This document shows, piece after piece, positions 1,696 to 8,657 of a stretch of DNA of 47,109 nucleotides. This DNA comes from Fimbriimonadaceae bacterium (lineage in GTDB: Bacteria; Armatimonadota; Fimbriimonadia; Fimbriimonadales; Fimbriimonadaceae). The stretch is from the NCBI GenBank assembly GCA_019638835.1, contig JAHBTC010000007.1:1-47109 (forward strand), given 5' to 3'. The translations under genes were made by a program, and so were the position numbers. The first letter of the stretch is position 1, and every line of letters starts with the position of its first letter. The notes under the pieces are model-generated. The model was not told the DNA's origin. It saw nothing but the letters and a program-made list of their open reading frames with translations, and did not search any database.

Positions 1696-2310
1696 ATGTT
1701 GACCATGCCGCACGAACTGAACGACGAAGCCCTTTCCGGGGTCATCGAGCGCGCCCACGAACTGCAGATGCAAGATCAAGAGTTGGCGTCCTACGAAGCG
1801 TTCGTACAAGCGGCCGAAGAAGCAGGTGTCCCGCGAGAATCGGTCTTGCAAGCTCTTCGCGAACGGCTTGCAACTGCGCCCCAATTCAAGGTGGACGATC
1901 TCGTCTTCGCCCCCGGCGCGGACGGCTGGCTTTACATTGCCAAGATCACGGGACTTGAGGAAGGAGTTGCGCAGCTAAAGTTCGCGAACGGCGCCGATGC
2001 GTCGTTTACGACCAACAAACTGATGTCCATGTCGCTTCTTCCCAACCAAAAGGTGCAAGTCAATCTTCCCGGGTGGGGAGGCTGGTACGGCTCAACTGTC
2101 GTATCCATCAACCACTTCGCGCACAGCCTGACGGTGAACGCTTCCGGAATTCAGCAAACGGTGACGATGGATGCGGTCCGCATTCGACCAGAAGTCGCCG
2201 ATGGAAAGGAGCGGAAGTTCACCAAGACCGAGTTCATTGAGTGGGTGGTCACGGCCGCAGTCTCAAGTGCCGTGGTCGGGGCACTGGTCACTTGGCTCAT
2301 CATGCGTTAG
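1696..2310 (+). CDS. Unknown protein: N-terminal helical region, Tudor/SH3-like middle, C-terminal membrane anchor
   Basis: 204 residues, not recognised as a named family. Residues 1-55 are charged and predicted helical (HELNDEALSGVIERAHELQ). Residues about 58-160 look like one or two small beta-barrel modules: FKVDDLVFAPGADGWLYIAKI followed later by LPGWGGWYGSTVVSIN, a pattern seen in Tudor/DUF4537-like repeats. The last 25 residues form one hydrophobic segment (AVSSAVVGALVTWLIM), so the protein is probably C-tail anchored with its bulk in the cytoplasm. An alternative start is the Met at 1705. No strong ribosome binding site is visible. The stop codon shares bases with the stop of the convergent CorC gene. 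The Tudor-like reading is an inference from the residue pattern only. Confidence 0.8.
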   Translation: MLTMPHELNDEALSGVIERAHELQMQDQELASYEAFVQAAEEAGVPRESVLQALRERLATAPQFKVDDLVFAPGADGWLYIAKITGLEEGVAQLKFANGADASFTTNKLMSMSLLPNQKVQVNLPGWGGWYGSTVVSINHFAHSLTVNASGIQQTVTMDAVRIRPEVADGKERKFTKTEFIEWVVTAAVSSAVVGALVTWLIMR

Positions 2311-3734
2311 TTCGCGCCGAGAGCAAACTCGTCGGCGGTTTCCGGAGCGGTGAGTGGCACGATCCCAACACGGACGATCCGGCGCCCATCCGTCTCGTTC
2401 ACCGTGAATCGGAAGCCATCATCCTCAATCGCCTCACCTTCACCGGGTTGGCGCCCGAACAACCCGAATACATACCCGCCAAGGGTGTCCACCTCGTCGT
2501 TCTCAAACCGGGTACCCAATTCTTCATTGAGGTCAGATAAAGGATAGAGGCCATCCACCTCCCATCCCTCTTCGGTGGAAGTTAGGAGCAAGTCCACCTC
2601 ATCTTCGTCGTATTCATCCTTGATTTCGCCTACTAGTTCTTCGACGATATCCTCAATGCTGACCACGCCGGCCGTGCCACCGAACTCGTCTTGTACGATC
2701 GCGAGTTGAGTCTGTTTGACGCGCATCTCCATCAGGAGTTCTTCGAGGAGGATTGTCTCAGGGACAAACATGGCTTCGCGTAGCAAGGATCGAAGTGGCA
2801 CCCTATCTTCGCCTAGTTGCGCCTTCAACACGTCCTTTGCGTGGATGATTCCGATGATTGAATCATCGTTCTCTTCAAACACGGGGAGACGGGAGTGACC
2901 GCTCTCCACCACGACTTTGACAACTTCTTCTAACTCCGCATTGACGGAGATGCTATCAACCTCAACGCGTGGGGTCATGATTTCGCGCGCGACCGTGCGC
3001 CGAAACTCAAGGACAGATTCCAATAGCTCTCCCCGAGCCTCCGACCAATTCTCATCTTCGCCCGCACCCTCCAGGATCGTTCGAATCTCGTCTTCCACTC
3101 GGTCATCATTTGAGTCTTCCTTCTCGTCGTTGTCCTGGCGTACGAGGCGGCGTAATCCTTCACTCAGTCGTAAGGCAGTTGCCATGAGTGGGCCGGACTT
3201 GACCCAGAACCGAAGCCACCCACGAGCACTCGCTAGGGTGCGAGACGAGTTTTCTTCGGCCCGATACCGTACGAGGGTGGTGAGAGACCCGAGGATCACC
3301 CACATCAAAACGAATACTCCCGAATAGATTAGAAGTCGGTTTTGGTTTGACATCCCATTCTCGGGTAAGGCCCCCATGGTGAGGGCGATCGCGCCGAGGG
3401 TCGCTGTCAGTGCGCAACCGAGAAAGGCAACGCTCTGGATCAGCCGAAGCGCAAACCTCGTTTTGGGCAGTTCGTAAGGGAGATCGGTTACCCCAAGTGC
3501 CCCGACAAGGGCTGAGGACTTCATGCGATCAAGAGCGCGCTCTAGGCCAGCGAATCGCACGGCAAGGAAAGTGAAGAGCACGGTGCCGATCAGGAGCAAC
3601 GGAAACTGCCACGCGGGGGGGACTACGACGGAAGCTACTCCGGAGGCCAAGGCGAGGGGTATCGGGAGGGCCCTCCCACTCTGAGAATTCAAAGTAGGCC
3701 GGGCCGGGGTACGTTTTGGAGGGTCTGCTTTCAT
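2307..3734 (-). CDS. CorC/HlyC-type CBS-domain membrane protein
   Basis: 475 residues. Four hydrophobic stretches in the first 155 residues (around 25-40, 45-60, 96-122 and 134-155) form the membrane part. They are followed by a charged linker rich in D and E, a pair of CBS domains (about 250-370, starting REIMTPRVEVDSI, with the second containing the conserved QDEFGGTAGVVSIEDIVEE) and the C-terminal CorC/HlyC transporter-associated domain (about 385-465). Proteins of this family are linked to magnesium/cobalt efflux or to stress tolerance; the haemolysin name is historical. The membrane region is not an obvious DUF21 (CNNM) domain, so transport itself is uncertain. It is the last gene of the rpsU-pgpH-ybeY-DGK run, 35 bp after the DGK gene, and genes of this type commonly sit there in other bacteria. 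Confidence 0.88.
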   Translation of the reverse strand: MKADPPKRTPARPTLNSQSGRALPIPLALASGVASVVVPPAWQFPLLLIGTVLFTFLAVRFAGLERALDRMKSSALVGALGVTDLPYELPKTRFALRLIQSVAFLGCALTATLGAIALTMGALPENGMSNQNRLLIYSGVFVLMWVILGSLTTLVRYRAEENSSRTLASARGWLRFWVKSGPLMATALRLSEGLRRLVRQDNDEKEDSNDDRVEDEIRTILEGAGEDENWSEARGELLESVLEFRRTVAREIMTPRVEVDSISVNAELEEVVKVVVESGHSRLPVFEENDDSIIGIIHAKDVLKAQLGEDRVPLRSLLREAMFVPETILLEELLMEMRVKQTQLAIVQDEFGGTAGVVSIEDIVEELVGEIKDEYDEDEVDLLLTSTEEGWEVDGLYPLSDLNEELGTRFENDEVDTLGGYVFGLFGRQPGEGEAIEDDGFRFTVNETDGRRIVRVGIVPLTAPETADEFALGAN

Positions 3735-3769
3735 GCTAGATGAGCCATAGAATTTCGCTGGCCCTTTAT

Positions 3770-4474
3770 CTATTTCGGCGTTAGACCGAATAACACTACC
3801 CCGACGACGATTCCAACGAAGGCCCCCAGGGTCAATTCGAATAACGAATGGAACTTCGCTTCGTACCGGGACTGGGCGATGATTCCGGCGAGAAGAACGG
3901 AAATTGCGGCAACGATTGCGTTATCCGCGAGGAAAAACACGCACGTTGCGAAGAAGAACCCGAGGGCAGAGTGACCGCTCACTTGGCCACCCTGTAACAC
4001 GCGTCCATGACGCCCCAATCCTTTGCCAATTGTGACTGCGACAATCACGGCGAGCGTGCCGGCGATGATCCTCACCATTACTGGGGCGCCGATCGTATCT
4101 GCGGTAAGCGAGAGTCGGATACGTTCCCATTGTTCATCGCCCACCATGATCACGGCACCGACAAGGATCGCCATCACAGTCGTGACGAGGACGGCCCCGG
4201 CGGCGATGTCTTTCGCGAACTTAGCGAGGGGGTGATAGTTTGGGCTGATCAAGTCAACGGTTGCCTCAATGGCCGAGTTGAACATCTCGGCGACCAAGAC
4301 AAAGGTGATCATGAACAGCAGAATGAGAAGTTCTCTGGTGGAGAGCCCTAACGCGAGCGCGCCAAGCATCGTCACCAGTGTCACCGTGAGGTGAATCCGC
4401 ATATGACGTTGAGTGCGGAAGGTGTGGATGACGCCATTGAACGCGGCCCGGAATGGGGTAAGGAAGTCCTTCAA
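3770..4474 (-). CDS. Fusion of a prokaryotic diacylglycerol/undecaprenol kinase with a PAP2-type phosphatase
   Basis: 234 residues; the stand-alone kinase is about 120. Residues 1-110 are a DgkA-family kinase: three membrane helices and the signature EMFNSAIEATVDL (63-75) followed by HPLAKFAKDIAAGAVL. In Gram-positive-like lineages this family phosphorylates undecaprenol; in E. coli it phosphorylates diacylglycerol. Residues about 130-230 carry the phosphatase motifs of the PAP2 superfamily in order: K151-x6-R158, SGH at 166-168, and SR 202-203 x5 H209 x3 E213, where the usual final residue is Asp. Start is a TTG overlapping the ybeY stop (TTGA), so translation is coupled. Kinase and phosphatase in one chain suggests control of a lipid-phosphate pool such as the undecaprenyl carrier, which is an inference. 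Confidence 0.88.
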   Translation of the reverse strand: MKDFLTPFRAAFNGVIHTFRTQRHMRIHLTVTLVTMLGALALGLSTRELLILLFMITFVLVAEMFNSAIEATVDLISPNYHPLAKFAKDIAAGAVLVTTVMAILVGAVIMVGDEQWERIRLSLTADTIGAPVMVRIIAGTLAVIVAVTIGKGLGRHGRVLQGGQVSGHSALGFFFATCVFFLADNAIVAAISVLLAGIIAQSRYEAKFHSLFELTLGAFVGIVVGVVLFGLTPK

Positions 4475-4947
4475 GATCGGACCTCATTGTGCGGCGCGGA
4501 GTGCCAATTTTCATCGGCTCTGAGTCCGACCTTGATCGCAATCTCGTTCATCCGGCGCACCATATCGTCCCGGTCTTCGTCGCTCTCGTCATCGAATCCG
4601 AGGAGGTGGAGACCTCCATGAATCGCAAGCATCGCGGCTTCGTCGCTCACGGATACTCCCCGTGCCTTCGATTGCCTTCGCGCAAAGTCAACGGATATTG
4701 CGATCTCACCGAGCCAGCCATGGGTTTGGGTAGGGGCGGGAAAGGAAAGCACGTCCGTCGGCTCGGGCAGGTCTCTGAAAGCCGAGTTCAAGCCGGCGAT
4801 CTCTTCGTCCGCCATCAAGACAACCTCAATGTCCATATCAGACCTTTGGTAATGGGAGAGAAGGGCCTCAAGTGCCTCCCGAATACGATCACCTTTCAGC
4901 CGACTCGGTGAGCGGTTCGATAGGTGAATCATTCGAGAGTTCCTCAA
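4471..4947 (-). CDS. ybeY: Endoribonuclease YbeY (rRNA maturation factor)
   Basis: 158 residues from the first Met. A second Met at 4932 (MIHLSNRSPSR) gives a length closer to the family norm and may be the true start. The family is a single-domain zinc endoribonuclease that takes part in 16S rRNA 3'-end maturation and ribosome quality control. The core PEPTDVLSFP (61-70), the G-E-I-A-I-S strand and the metal site HGGLHLLGFDDE (H110, H114) are present. The usual third metal ligand is His, but here the equivalent residue is Asp 120. It overlaps the end of the pgpH-like gene by about 40-59 bp and is followed by the DGK fusion with a TTGA overlap, matching the widely conserved pgpH-ybeY-dgkA order. 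Confidence 0.94.
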   Translation of the reverse strand: MRNSRMIHLSNRSPSRLKGDRIREALEALLSHYQRSDMDIEVVLMADEEIAGLNSAFRDLPEPTDVLSFPAPTQTHGWLGEIAISVDFARRQSKARGVSVSDEAAMLAIHGGLHLLGFDDESDEDRDDMVRRMNEIAIKVGLRADENWHSAPHNEVRS

Positions 4948-6400
4948 CCACGGCCGTGTCCGGGTATTCGATTCGGTCGTGACGGAGGGCGTTCACGGTA
5001 TGCGTGAACGACTCCGCTATCAAGGAGACGTCGCGGAAGGTCAAATCGCATTCGTTCAGTTGGCCATCTGCGCGACTTCGCTCTACGATGTCCTGAATCA
5101 TGCGTTCGCATTCTTCTTGGTTCCGGCAGGTCCGCGTTGCCGCCTCAACCTGATCAGCGAGGTGAAGAATCGCAATCTCACGGGTCTGGGGTACTGGGCC
5201 GTCGTAGCGGAAGAACTTCTCGAGACAAGGTTGCTCGTCGAGTTGCGGCTCAGGCACATCGGAACCTGTTGTCGCCCGGTGATAGAAGTAAGTGATCAAA
5301 CTTGTTCCATGATGCTGGCGGATCGCGTCAAGGATGATTCCCGGTAGTTTCTTCTGCTTTCCGAGTTCGACGCCATCACGGACATGGGCGGTGAGCACTT
5401 GAGCGCTCAAAGCGGGCGACATGTGGTCGTGCGGATTCTCACCGGTTTGATTCTCGATGAAATAAGCGGGTCGCACGGTTTTCCCAACGTCGTGGAAGTA
5501 AGCCATTGTCCGAACCAGCACTGGGTTGGCACCCACCTTCCGTGCGGCGGCTTCTGCGAGGTTCGCCACGCCGATACTGTGAGCGTACGTACCTGGTGCA
5601 CGCAGGGCGAGGTCGTGAAGAAGTGGATGTTCAGGACTGCAGAGTTCGAGAAGCGTCCAGTCGGAAACGAGGTCAAACACTCTCTCAAAGAGGGCGAGGC
5701 CAAGCCAGAAAACGCTTGTAGCGATGAACGCCGCAACAACCGCCCAAAGGGTGCCGACCGTCATTTGGGCGAGCGTTACTCCCGCGACGATCCCGAGGCT
5801 CAAGGCGATGATTACATTTGCGCCGCTTTGGATAGAGACAGCGCGCAAAAGATGGGAGCGCTGCTTCATGGGGTTGACTGCGTGGGCACCGACCACACCG
5901 GCAATCCAAGATGCAGTTACCAACTCGATACTGATCATCCCGCTCAATCCCATGAGGAGGGCAGTGAAACTTAAGCCGAGCAAGGCGGCGGATGGGCCGA
6001 TCAAGGCACTGACAAGCATCGCCTGGGCCACGATCGGTCCAAGTTGGAGGTACTCGGTGCCGACGTGAGATTCGCTTCCAAGCACGGCTCGGATCGCCTG
6101 GCCCCCAAGGATTGCCAAAATGGCCGTTGCATAGACGATTCTTTCGTGCTTGTCCACCGACGAGGTTGACTTCGAAATCTGCCTCAGATGGATGTGGACG
6201 AGGAAACTCGCCGCAAGGGATACGAGAACTAGCCCCCCGGCTTCAAGGAAACTCCATGGCCAAGGCATATGGAGGGCTAGGGCTCCTCCCATGAGAATCG
6301 CGCCCAGAACGCGGGCCGATAAATCAGACACCCACGGTCGCCAGAAGGCTTGCGAGCCTAAGCGATTCGTGGGTGCCGGGGTGCGCCCGGAAGATTTCAT
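4889..6400 (-). CDS. 7TM-HD membrane phosphohydrolase (PgpH-like, probable c-di-AMP phosphodiesterase)
   Basis: 503 residues. About seven membrane segments occupy residues 30-240 and lead into an HD domain: H274 in GTYAHS, the HD pair H303-D304 in AYFHDVGK, then NPHDHMSP and AIRQHHGTSLI. The order and motifs match the PgpH family, which hydrolyses cyclic di-AMP. The usual large extracellular 7TMR-HDED domain at the N-terminus is absent; typical PgpH proteins are about 700 residues. Start ATG has GGAG nine bases upstream. It is 30 bp downstream of rpsU and overlaps ybeY. Substrate is inferred from family and context; the presence of a DarA-type receptor at 20408 supports c-di-AMP use in this organism. 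Confidence 0.9.
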   Translation of the reverse strand: MKSSGRTPAPTNRLGSQAFWRPWVSDLSARVLGAILMGGALALHMPWPWSFLEAGGLVLVSLAASFLVHIHLRQISKSTSSVDKHERIVYATAILAILGGQAIRAVLGSESHVGTEYLQLGPIVAQAMLVSALIGPSAALLGLSFTALLMGLSGMISIELVTASWIAGVVGAHAVNPMKQRSHLLRAVSIQSGANVIIALSLGIVAGVTLAQMTVGTLWAVVAAFIATSVFWLGLALFERVFDLVSDWTLLELCSPEHPLLHDLALRAPGTYAHSIGVANLAEAAARKVGANPVLVRTMAYFHDVGKTVRPAYFIENQTGENPHDHMSPALSAQVLTAHVRDGVELGKQKKLPGIILDAIRQHHGTSLITYFYHRATTGSDVPEPQLDEQPCLEKFFRYDGPVPQTREIAILHLADQVEAATRTCRNQEECERMIQDIVERSRADGQLNECDLTFRDVSLIAESFTHTVNALRHDRIEYPDTAVVEELSNDSPIEPLTESAER

Positions 6401-6430
6401 AGTGATCTTCTCCGGGGAGAGACAGAAAGA

Positions 6431-6604
6431 TTAGCCGCGTGAACTAACGCGTCGTCGGCTCTGCCGTCGGCGTCGTTCGCTCGGTTTTTCGTAGTGCGCG
6501 TGATCCTTGAGATCACGGAGCAGGCCGCTGTGCTGAACCTTCTGATTGAAGCGCTTCATGGCGCTGTCCAGCGATTCGCCTGCGTGAACTGACACGTAAA
6601 CCAT
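6431..6604 (-). CDS. rpsU: 30S ribosomal protein bS21
   Basis: 57 residues, beginning MVYVSVHAGESLDSAMKRFN and ending in an Arg-rich tail (YEKPSERRRRQSRRR), the usual layout and length of bS21. The protein binds the 30S platform close to the anti-Shine-Dalgarno region and assists initiation. The ATG at 6604 is preceded by AAGG at about 10 bases. It heads the minus-strand operon with the pgpH-like gene, ybeY, DGK and CBS genes. An rpsU gene close to pgpH/ybeY is a recurring arrangement in bacteria and ties ribosome assembly genes together. No yqeY or phoH gene is present between them here. Confidence 0.95.
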   Translation of the reverse strand: MVYVSVHAGESLDSAMKRFNQKVQHSGLLRDLKDHAHYEKPSERRRRQSRRRVSSRG

Positions 6605-6684
6605 TGTCGTTTGACCTTAGTGGACGCTAATGATACCTCTTCAACCTAGTATCGGAAGAATTCGCCCAGTGGACGATAGGCCCG

Positions 6685-7533
6685 TTACGGTCGGTAGACG
6701 AACTGGCCCAACCCCTTCGATACGGTCGCATCCGCATCACCTTCGATGCAAACGACAGTAATTACAGATTCTCCGGTGGACATCTCGATGCGGCGGTTGA
6801 TCCCAGTGCCATGCATGATATGACCATTACCCGCGAGAATCACCATGACGTCCTTTGAACTAGGGCGACGACGCATTACGGCGAGCGCATTTGCGGCCAT
6901 ACCTTCGTCCCACATCACCATGCCTCGGTACATGCCATCAAGCGCAGCCCCCGGAGGGTGTCCTTCCATCATCGCGTTGAAGAGCGTGCGGTGGGCGGTG
7001 AGATTCATGTCCATACGAGGCACTCGCTGCTTCATTTCGTCGGTCATGGCGTCCATCCCCGTACGTGAGACCGAACTCACCCAGGGTCGAGGCACATTCA
7101 GTGCGAACAGCCCAAGACGATGAGTACGAACCGAGTCAAAGATCGGCTTATACAAGGTGTAATCGAAGCCCCACTGATTCTTCCAATCGGATCGCTGGAT
7201 AAACTCTTCTTCGGACCACATCCCTTGCGCCCATGGATTGAGATTGGCTTGGTTATCAAAAGTGAACATTTCCAGGCCGACCGAAACGCGACGGCCGTCC
7301 GCAACAAGCGCTTCAATCACTTCGGCTTGGGCTCGGTGGTGTTCGGCGTTATCGTGTGACTCACCTACGAATACAAAACGCATGCCCCGCGCTGCCTCGG
7401 CGATCGCGCTTGCCTCAACGGATCGGCCCTGCGGCAACTGCGTGTAGCCTTTGCTGGCTTCAACGAGCCCAGGGGCAGAGATCGGCAGTTGGTAAACGTT
7501 CGCGGCAACGAGAACTGCGGCCCAAACACTCAT
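6685..7533 (-). CDS. ChaN-family putative haem-binding/iron-regulated protein
   Basis: 282 residues from the Met at 7533, chosen because it gives a clean signal-like N-terminus (MSVWAAVLVAANVYQ) and avoids overlapping the divergent gene at 7569; a longer frame reaches 7575. The ChaN domain spans most of the protein: FVFVGESHDNAEHHRAQAEVI near residue 60, GLEMFTFDNQANLNPW, and a late AGNGHIMHGTGINRRIE block. ChaN of Campylobacter is a haem-binding lipoprotein, and the fold is related to EreA/TIKI-type enzymes. No lipobox Cys is seen, so this one is probably periplasmic. Function in iron or haem handling is family-based. It has 35 bp to the divergent gene, so promoters must be close together. 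Confidence 0.85.
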   Translation of the reverse strand: MSVWAAVLVAANVYQLPISAPGLVEASKGYTQLPQGRSVEASAIAEAARGMRFVFVGESHDNAEHHRAQAEVIEALVADGRRVSVGLEMFTFDNQANLNPWAQGMWSEEEFIQRSDWKNQWGFDYTLYKPIFDSVRTHRLGLFALNVPRPWVSSVSRTGMDAMTDEMKQRVPRMDMNLTAHRTLFNAMMEGHPPGAALDGMYRGMVMWDEGMAANALAVMRRRPSSKDVMVILAGNGHIMHGTGINRRIEMSTGESVITVVCIEGDADATVSKGLGQFVYRP

Positions 7534-7568
7534 GTCCCTCAGTTTAGTCCAGGTGTAACATTCGCAAC

Positions 7569-8195
7569 GTGGCAAATCCTAAGCCAGCGAAGCGGATGAA
7601 AGCTTGGCCAATCCTATTGGTCGCAATCATCACTGTGCTCGGTGGGTCAGGATTTGTGGTTTGGCGCACCTACTTCAGGCCCAAGCCATCCGTTCATAGG
7701 CCGCCTTTGATTGTGCCGTCGATTGAGGATCCATCGGCCCCAGAGACGGACGAGGAAGCGAATCTGAGGGTTGCGGACTGGTGGCGGCAGGGAAATGTGC
7801 GCGCCACCGGAGCAATTGACACCATTCAAGAAGCATTTGCGGAAGCAAAACGCGTCACGAAACAGGCAAAGCCGGACACCAAAGAAGCCCTCGAAGCGGC
7901 CTTCGATTTGATCGACGACGCGGGATCGAACATGGCCGAGTGCACCACGAATCCTCCTTCCACTGAGCAGGTAGCAAGCGATTTCCGAAAGTGGGACGAG
8001 GCCCGGATTCGAAATATTGGCCGAGCCGAGACGGCCGCAATGAATCTGCGGGAAGCATTTGGCATCGTGAGTAGTCTTGCGCCCGCGCACCCTGAGTTGA
8101 TCCCACTCAAGAGACTAACGGGTCTCGCTCGAGAAGATGCGATCTTGGTGGTGACGGGCTTTGGGGGCCAGTGGCCTCCTCCAAATTTGGAGTAG
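7569..8195 (+). CDS. Unknown protein with one N-terminal membrane helix
   Basis: 208 residues with a GTG start. A short basic N-terminus (KPAKRMK) precedes a single hydrophobic helix (residues about 12-32, AWPILLVAIITVLGGSGFVVW). The rest is a mostly helical, charged domain with a Pro-rich linker (KPSVHRPPLIVPSIEDPSAP), probably on the outer side of the membrane. No recognised domain or catalytic motif. It leads a plus-strand run of closely spaced genes (18 bp to the next gene, 26 bp to the one after). Confidence 0.72.
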   Translation: MANPKPAKRMKAWPILLVAIITVLGGSGFVVWRTYFRPKPSVHRPPLIVPSIEDPSAPETDEEANLRVADWWRQGNVRATGAIDTIQEAFAEAKRVTKQAKPDTKEALEAAFDLIDDAGSNMAECTTNPPSTEQVASDFRKWDEARIRNIGRAETAAMNLREAFGIVSSLAPAHPELIPLKRLTGLAREDAILVVTGFGGQWPPPNLE

Positions 8196-8213
8196 AAACG
8201 TCTAATCACCATA

Positions 8214-8657
8214 ATGAAAAACATGAGCAGACTTGTGGCACTGACCCTCGTGGCGGTCGCGGTTGCTGGTTGCTCAAAACCGGCACCAACCGCATCACGC
8301 GTCCCAGTTAAGCCAGACCCTTCGGTTGTGGCGCCTACAGCAGAAGAAATTTACGTGGGAACATGGAAAGCCGACCCGGACCGAATCCTGAAGGACTCGA
8401 AAGGCAACGACGTGAGAATGTCCAGTGGACTTTCAGAGTTCCTTGGAAAGCCAGAATTAATCCTTCGCGATGATATGACGTTCCGCCTTTCTGAGTTCAA
8501 GGGAGATAACAAACCGGGAAAATGGAAAGTTGAGGGCGACGGAATCGTCTTGAAGTTTGATGGGGATATGCCGCCAGCCCGCTACGACCGCGCCGATGGC
8601 GGAGATTCCCTCCGGAACGCCGAACTCAACATGCTTTTCCGTCGCGAGAAGATTTAG
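8214..8657 (+). CDS. Small lipoprotein of unknown function
   Basis: 147 residues. The N-terminus is a classical lipoprotein signal peptide with lipobox VAGC (Cys about residue 20), followed by a Pro/Ala/Thr-rich stretch. The remainder (YVGTWKADPDRIL..., DDMTFRLSEF, GKWKVEGDGIVLKF) resembles the short beta-rich modules that begin with GTW and describe lipocalin-like or membrane-exported lipoproteins. No exact family is claimed. An alternative start is the Met four codons downstream. It is probably co-transcribed with the genes on either side. Confidence 0.8.
   Translation: MKNMSRLVALTLVAVAVAGCSKPAPTASRVPVKPDPSVVAPTAEEIYVGTWKADPDRILKDSKGNDVRMSSGLSEFLGKPELILRDDMTFRLSEFKGDNKPGKWKVEGDGIVLKFDGDMPPARYDRADGGDSLRNAELNMLFRREKI

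Follow-up and report, generated by a model that had tools for sequence, protein, structure and literature searches.

A DgkA-type lipid kinase and a divergent PAP2 domain joined in one polypeptide in Fimbriimonadaceae and other Armatimonadota

INTRODUCTION

In PAP2 phosphatases, the His residue of the third sequence motif (C3) attacks the phosphate, and a carboxylate of the same motif assists. Escherichia coli PgpB has six helices and carries its motifs at the periplasmic interface. All C55-PP phosphatases known so far have their sites toward the periplasm, and none with a cytoplasmic orientation is known (PMC7413402). Among PgpB variants, D211A retains 0.07 percent of the C55-PP activity and R104A, which lacks the C1 Arg, about 2 percent, while K97A, which lacks the C1 Lys, is fully active; P160A retains 13 percent of the activity and complementation (PMC7413402).

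The active sites of the DgkA lipid kinases lie at the interface of membrane and cytoplasm; each monomer has three transmembrane helices, the third of which bears R92 at its cytoplasmic end (PMC6408475). In Bacillus subtilis, DgkA is an undecaprenol kinase and supplies the pool of undecaprenyl phosphate (Und-P) (PMC5723303).

Here, we describe a gene of a Fimbriimonadaceae bacterium (GenBank assembly GCA_019638835.1, contig JAHBTC010000007.1) in which a DgkA domain is followed by a PAP2 domain. The window, i.e., the whole stretch of DNA that was analyzed, comprises 47,109 nucleotides.

RESULTS

Fusion gene and gene neighborhood

The fusion gene is surrounded by the following genes.

2307 to 3734, minus strand: CBS/CorC_HlyC protein, downstream neighbor (PF03471, PF00571)
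3770 to 4474, minus strand: DgkA-PAP2 fusion protein, 234 amino acids (open reading frame with a TTG start)
4471 to 4947, minus strand: ybeY (rRNA maturation RNase), upstream neighbor (TIGR00043/PF02130)
4889 to 6400, minus strand: 7TM-HD (PgpH-like) phosphohydrolase, upstream neighbor (PF07698 and PF01966)

The position after ybeY is the usual place of dgkA, as in B. subtilis. This arrangement is shared by nearly all Fimbriimonadales relatives, ybeY lying directly 5' of the fusion gene in 78 of 80. In all 80 relatives, the locus includes the CBS/CorC_HlyC gene on the strand of the fusion gene, immediately 3' of it in 16 of them. The stop codon of ybeY and the TTG with which the fusion gene begins overlap in four bases (TTGA, positions 4471 to 4474), an arrangement of the translational-coupling type. 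A frameshift or an assembly join of two genes was ruled out as the origin of the fused reading frame, because the same full-length frame, without internal stops, exists in independent genomes.

Kinase half

The kinase half comprises the following features.

4145 to 4447, minus strand: DgkA (undecaprenol/diacylglycerol kinase) domain, residues 10 to 110, with three predicted transmembrane helices (PF01219, E 3e-34)
4265 to 4288, minus strand: kinase signature E63-M-F-N66-S-A-I-E70, equivalent to E69, N72, and E76 of E. coli DgkA
4208 to 4213, minus strand: K88-D89, equivalent to K94-D95 of E. coli DgkA

A preliminary description, made from the DNA letters, had recognized a DgkA domain with its signature, and our analysis bears this out. 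The whole protein matches the PF01219 profile with 117.3 bits (cut-off, 22.3), and E63, N66, E70, K88, and D89 are invariant in the family alignment A1. Their equivalents in E. coli DgkA are classed as functionally important (PMC6408475). Furthermore, residues 1 to 115 of the AlphaFold model align with DgkA crystal structures (VIA-align, Z up to about 11.7). The fusion protein is the single DgkA that a PF01219 profile search found in the genome. Because the gene is placed after ybeY and its product resembles the DgkA proteins of Bacillota, the kinase half is, by analogy, most likely an undecaprenol kinase.

PAP2 half

The following features were located in the C-terminal half.

3782 to 4084, minus strand: PAP2 core, residues 131 to 231, with four predicted helices (132 to 152, 167 to 182, 186 to 205, and 211 to 230), defined by PF01569 on the C-terminal half and by the AlphaFold fold
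4001 to 4024, minus strand: C1 motif K151-x6-R158, with an invariant Lys and a variable Arg
3971 to 3979, minus strand: C2 motif S166-G167-H168, invariant in 88 of 88 sequences
3836 to 3871, minus strand: C3 motif S202-R203-x5-H209-x3-E213, with Glu for the usual Asp, as seen in the alignment

When the whole protein was scanned with PF01569, residues 163 to 231 scored 23.1 bits (E 6.5e-5), which is below the cut-off of 27.2; the C-terminal 114 residues scanned alone scored 29.5 bits (E 6.8e-7), which is above it, and the genome search returned 29.6 bits for the PAP2 domain of the fusion. The profile is matched by 39 of the 40 members of alignment A1 (best E, 3.7e-10), and the PAP2 halves of relatives score up to 40.1 bits. 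Searched as a sequence profile, the C-terminal half retrieves LpxE of Aquifex aeolicus (E 4.5e-5), and the C2 and C3 motifs of the two are aligned with each other.

The AlphaFold model of the whole protein has a mean pLDDT of 75.7, the C-terminal half being better predicted than the kinase part, and a pTM of 0.46, too low for the arrangement of the two domains to be trusted. In this model, residues from about 120 to 234 align on PAP2 enzymes (VIA-align). Modeled alone, the C-terminal half reaches a pLDDT of 86.5 and a pTM of 0.77, and its six top-ranked structures are LpxE (Z 12.0), YodM/bsPgpB (11.2), three entries of human LPP1 (10.3 to 10.6), and E. coli PgpB (9.8), to be read against a Z of up to about 13 that helical bundles reach by chance. 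Acid phosphatases are also among the leading matches, and the Foldseek E values are weak (0.1 and above). We assign the PAP2 fold because one superfamily fills the top ranks and the sequence profile finds LpxE. Hits of the sequence profile to ER membrane complex subunit 6 (E about 0.1) were set aside, being weak and confined to hydrophobic helices.

By profile and by predicted fold, a kinase and a PAP2 domain are thus present in one polypeptide, as had been proposed. A chance match of short motifs is ruled out by the profile, the fold, and the family-wide conservation.

Conservation of the PAP2 motifs

The claim that all three PAP2 motifs are retained holds for C2 and C3 and for one-half of C1. 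Residues K151, S166, G167, H168, R203, H209, and E213 are identical in all 88 aligned homologs, and S202 is identical in 87; the C1 Arg (R158), on the other hand, is present in only 13 of 88, Gln being the commonest residue there. The family departs from the C1 consensus K-x6-RP also in having no Pro, the present copy reading K-x6-R-V. The residue preceding SGH is Val, in place of Pro, in 80 of 88 homologs, and Glu replaces Asp in C3 in every one of them.

It had been suggested from the Asp-to-Glu change and from Val in place of Pro that the phosphatase is specialized or weakened. This suggestion is not supported, since both changes are family-wide and since the P160A variant of PgpB still complements. 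Their fixation across the family argues for a maintained function and a family trait rather than decay, and from the sequences we read the PAP2 half as a diverged but maintained phosphatase. Because C1 is incomplete throughout the family while the profile and the fold agree with PAP2, it is classified here as a divergent PAP2 homolog rather than a phosphatase typical of PAP2.

Distribution of the fusion

Each of the 80 Fimbriimonadales loci fetched has the full-length fusion, as do 39 of 41 near genomes. Within Armatimonadota, matches occur in 254 of 291 genomes; among the matches listed, every one covers both domains. The kinase-PAP2 fusion is therefore ordinary for Armatimonadota and not a local oddity. 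For the spread beyond this phylum, the basis is one sequence, from Acetoanaerobium noterae (Bacillota). The A. noterae relative is 40 percent identical over 91 percent of the query. Its PAP2 half scores above the Pfam cut-off and has the invariant C2 and C3 residues, and the ybeY-dgkA order recurs at its locus.

No full-length match was found in phage sequences, nor was any relative of the fusion found in a scan of IMG/VR. A plasmid origin was likewise rejected, as the one full-length "plasmid" match lies on a 2.63-Mb record that seems to be a mislabeled chromosome. This record, labeled A. noterae plasmid pTPELB2, has what seems to be a housekeeping cluster in the order phoH-ybeY-dgkA/PAP2-cdd-era-recO (L114, positions 3444 to 8311; gene names read by eye from the open reading frames) and is thus probably the chromosome. 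A second record with a doubtful title is a contig named Methanoregulaceae archaeon (isolate SJ84; L066). Its DgkA-PAP2 gene is of the Armatimonadota type (58 percent identical), so that probably either the contig is misnamed or its bin is mixed.

Literature searches for the DgkA-PAP2 architecture found nothing. The domain combination looks like one long cataloged in the Conserved Domain Database (CDD), where the entries cd03383 (PAP2_diacylglycerolkinase) and cd14266 (undecaprenol kinase with PAP2) presumably describe the same architecture in bacteria, with no function assigned.

Membrane topology

Because DgkA has its active site at the cytoplasmic interface and three helices, the C terminus of the kinase half should be periplasmic. 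A single further helix (132 to 152) precedes C1, which would place C1 and C2 (residues 151 to 168) in the cytoplasm; two helices follow C2, and C3 (residues 202 to 213) would hence be cytoplasmic as well. From this count of predicted helices we infer a cytoplasmic location of C1 to C3, next to the kinase site.

The charge distribution is in partial agreement. The loops assigned to the cytoplasm contain more Lys and Arg in 88 of 88 homologs, but they are also longer, and the density of these residues is higher in 74. When the PAP2 half is taken by itself, the loops bearing C1 to C3 have a more positive net charge than the opposite loops in 88 of 88; when K151 and R203 are left out, the Lys/Arg count agrees with a cytoplasmic location of C1 to C3 in 25 of 88. 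Because the positive-inside signal of the PAP2 half weakens without these two residues, the topology rests mainly on the helix count.

Lipid-carrier genes of the genome

Profile searches found UppS and one BacA in the genome, which indicates that an Und-P cycle exists. One DedA-type protein was also found, while a DUF368 translocase was not found in the genome. A standalone canonical PAP2 protein (65.6 bits; minus strand, positions 1399 to 2052 of L001) offers an in-genome comparison for the fusion; its motifs are C1 K-x6-RP, a C2-like SAH, and C3 SR-x5-H.

DISCUSSION

Proposed function and alternatives

We propose that the fusion protein is an integral-membrane lipid-carrier enzyme, in which a DgkA-type domain similar to undecaprenol kinases precedes a compact PAP2 phosphatase domain of four helices, and that it would keep the Und-P pool of the inner leaflet filled. 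The kinase domain would convert undecaprenol and ATP to Und-P, and the phosphatase domain would trim a polyprenyl (pyro)phosphate via a phospho-His209 intermediate. The lipid substrates of both domains are guessed by analogy with their families. Taken as a whole, including the cytoplasm-facing PAP2 site, this account has in our opinion an even chance of being right. Among the observations that count against it, the C1 Arg is not conserved, the C3 Asp is replaced by Glu, and BacA and a canonical PAP2 protein are already encoded in the genome. Its most specific part, namely, that the cytoplasm-facing PAP2 domain dephosphorylates new Und-PP at the inner leaflet and so acts in the same direction as the kinase, is put forward tentatively, as something that may well prove wrong.

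The preliminary description instead envisaged a bidirectional switch, in which the kinase makes Und-P and the PAP2 domain returns it to undecaprenol, the ratio being set by ATP or stress. Both domains are indeed present and, by helix count, face the same leaflet. However, the bacterial PAP2 enzymes in the literature considered act on C55-PP or PGP (PMC7413402), a phosphatase making Und-P from Und-PP would run in the direction of the kinase, and if DgkA alone dephosphorylates Und-P, an extra domain is less needed. We therefore find such a switch doubtful, and we think that the conversion of Und-PP to Und-P is an equally good or somewhat likelier reading of the phosphatase reaction than that of Und-P to undecaprenol.

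It is also conceivable that the PAP2 domain is catalytically dead or nearly so and stabilizes or regulates the kinase, e.g., by binding a lipid phosphate. The loss of the C1 Arg in most members and the C3 change to Glu would fit this, as would the reduction of the PAP2 core to four helices and the very short spacer between C1 and C2. A dead domain would, however, not need its catalytic residues, and S166, G167, H168, R203, His209, and Glu213 are invariant in 88 sequences and present in Acetoanaerobium too; we consider this explanation unlikely. A diacylglycerol/phosphatidate couple, in which the kinase makes phosphatidate and the PAP2 domain reverses the reaction to set membrane diacylglycerol levels, would agree with the use of diacylglycerol by E. 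coli DgkA (PMC6408475) and with the hydrolysis of phosphatidate by PAP2 enzymes such as PgpB (PMC7413402) but is improbable given a ybeY-dgkA neighborhood typical of Bacillota, where DgkA is an undecaprenol kinase, as in B. subtilis (PMC5723303).

What is less ordinary about the lipid-carrier enzyme proposed above is the apparent exposure of both active sites to the cell interior, and it is this orientation that could matter. If true, the cytoplasm-facing PAP2 domain would be the cytoplasm-oriented C55-PP phosphatase hitherto noted as missing. Because an odd number of preceding helices would keep the PAP2 domain at the cytoplasmic face, this orientation could be tested directly in a single small protein.

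Comparison with known enzymes

With the Gram-positive undecaprenol kinases of the DgkA type (B. subtilis and Streptococcus mutans), the fusion has the PF01219 domain and the catalytic residues in common; unlike the fusion, these kinases are not known to have a PAP2 domain. In structure as in sequence, the PAP2 half is best matched by A. aeolicus LpxE (PDB 6ebu; 2.1 Å over 98 residues at the Z of 12.0 given above), which is a standalone PAP2 phosphatase without a kinase domain and has SGD for SGH in the PDB construct. PgpB and YodM/bsPgpB share with the fusion the PAP2 core fold, SGH, S-R-x5-H, and a carboxylate four residues past the C3 His. Whereas these two enzymes have six helices, a periplasmic site, Asp in C3, and a C1 Arg that is needed, the PAP2 half of the fusion has four helices, a site predicted to be cytoplasmic, Glu in C3, and a variable C1 Arg. 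Of the two C1 residues, the Lys is dispensable in PgpB and invariant in the fusion family, and the Arg is needed in PgpB and usually absent in the fusion family. If the helix count is right, the PAP2 site of the fusion lies on the opposite side of the membrane from that of the PgpB-type bacterial PAP2 enzymes.
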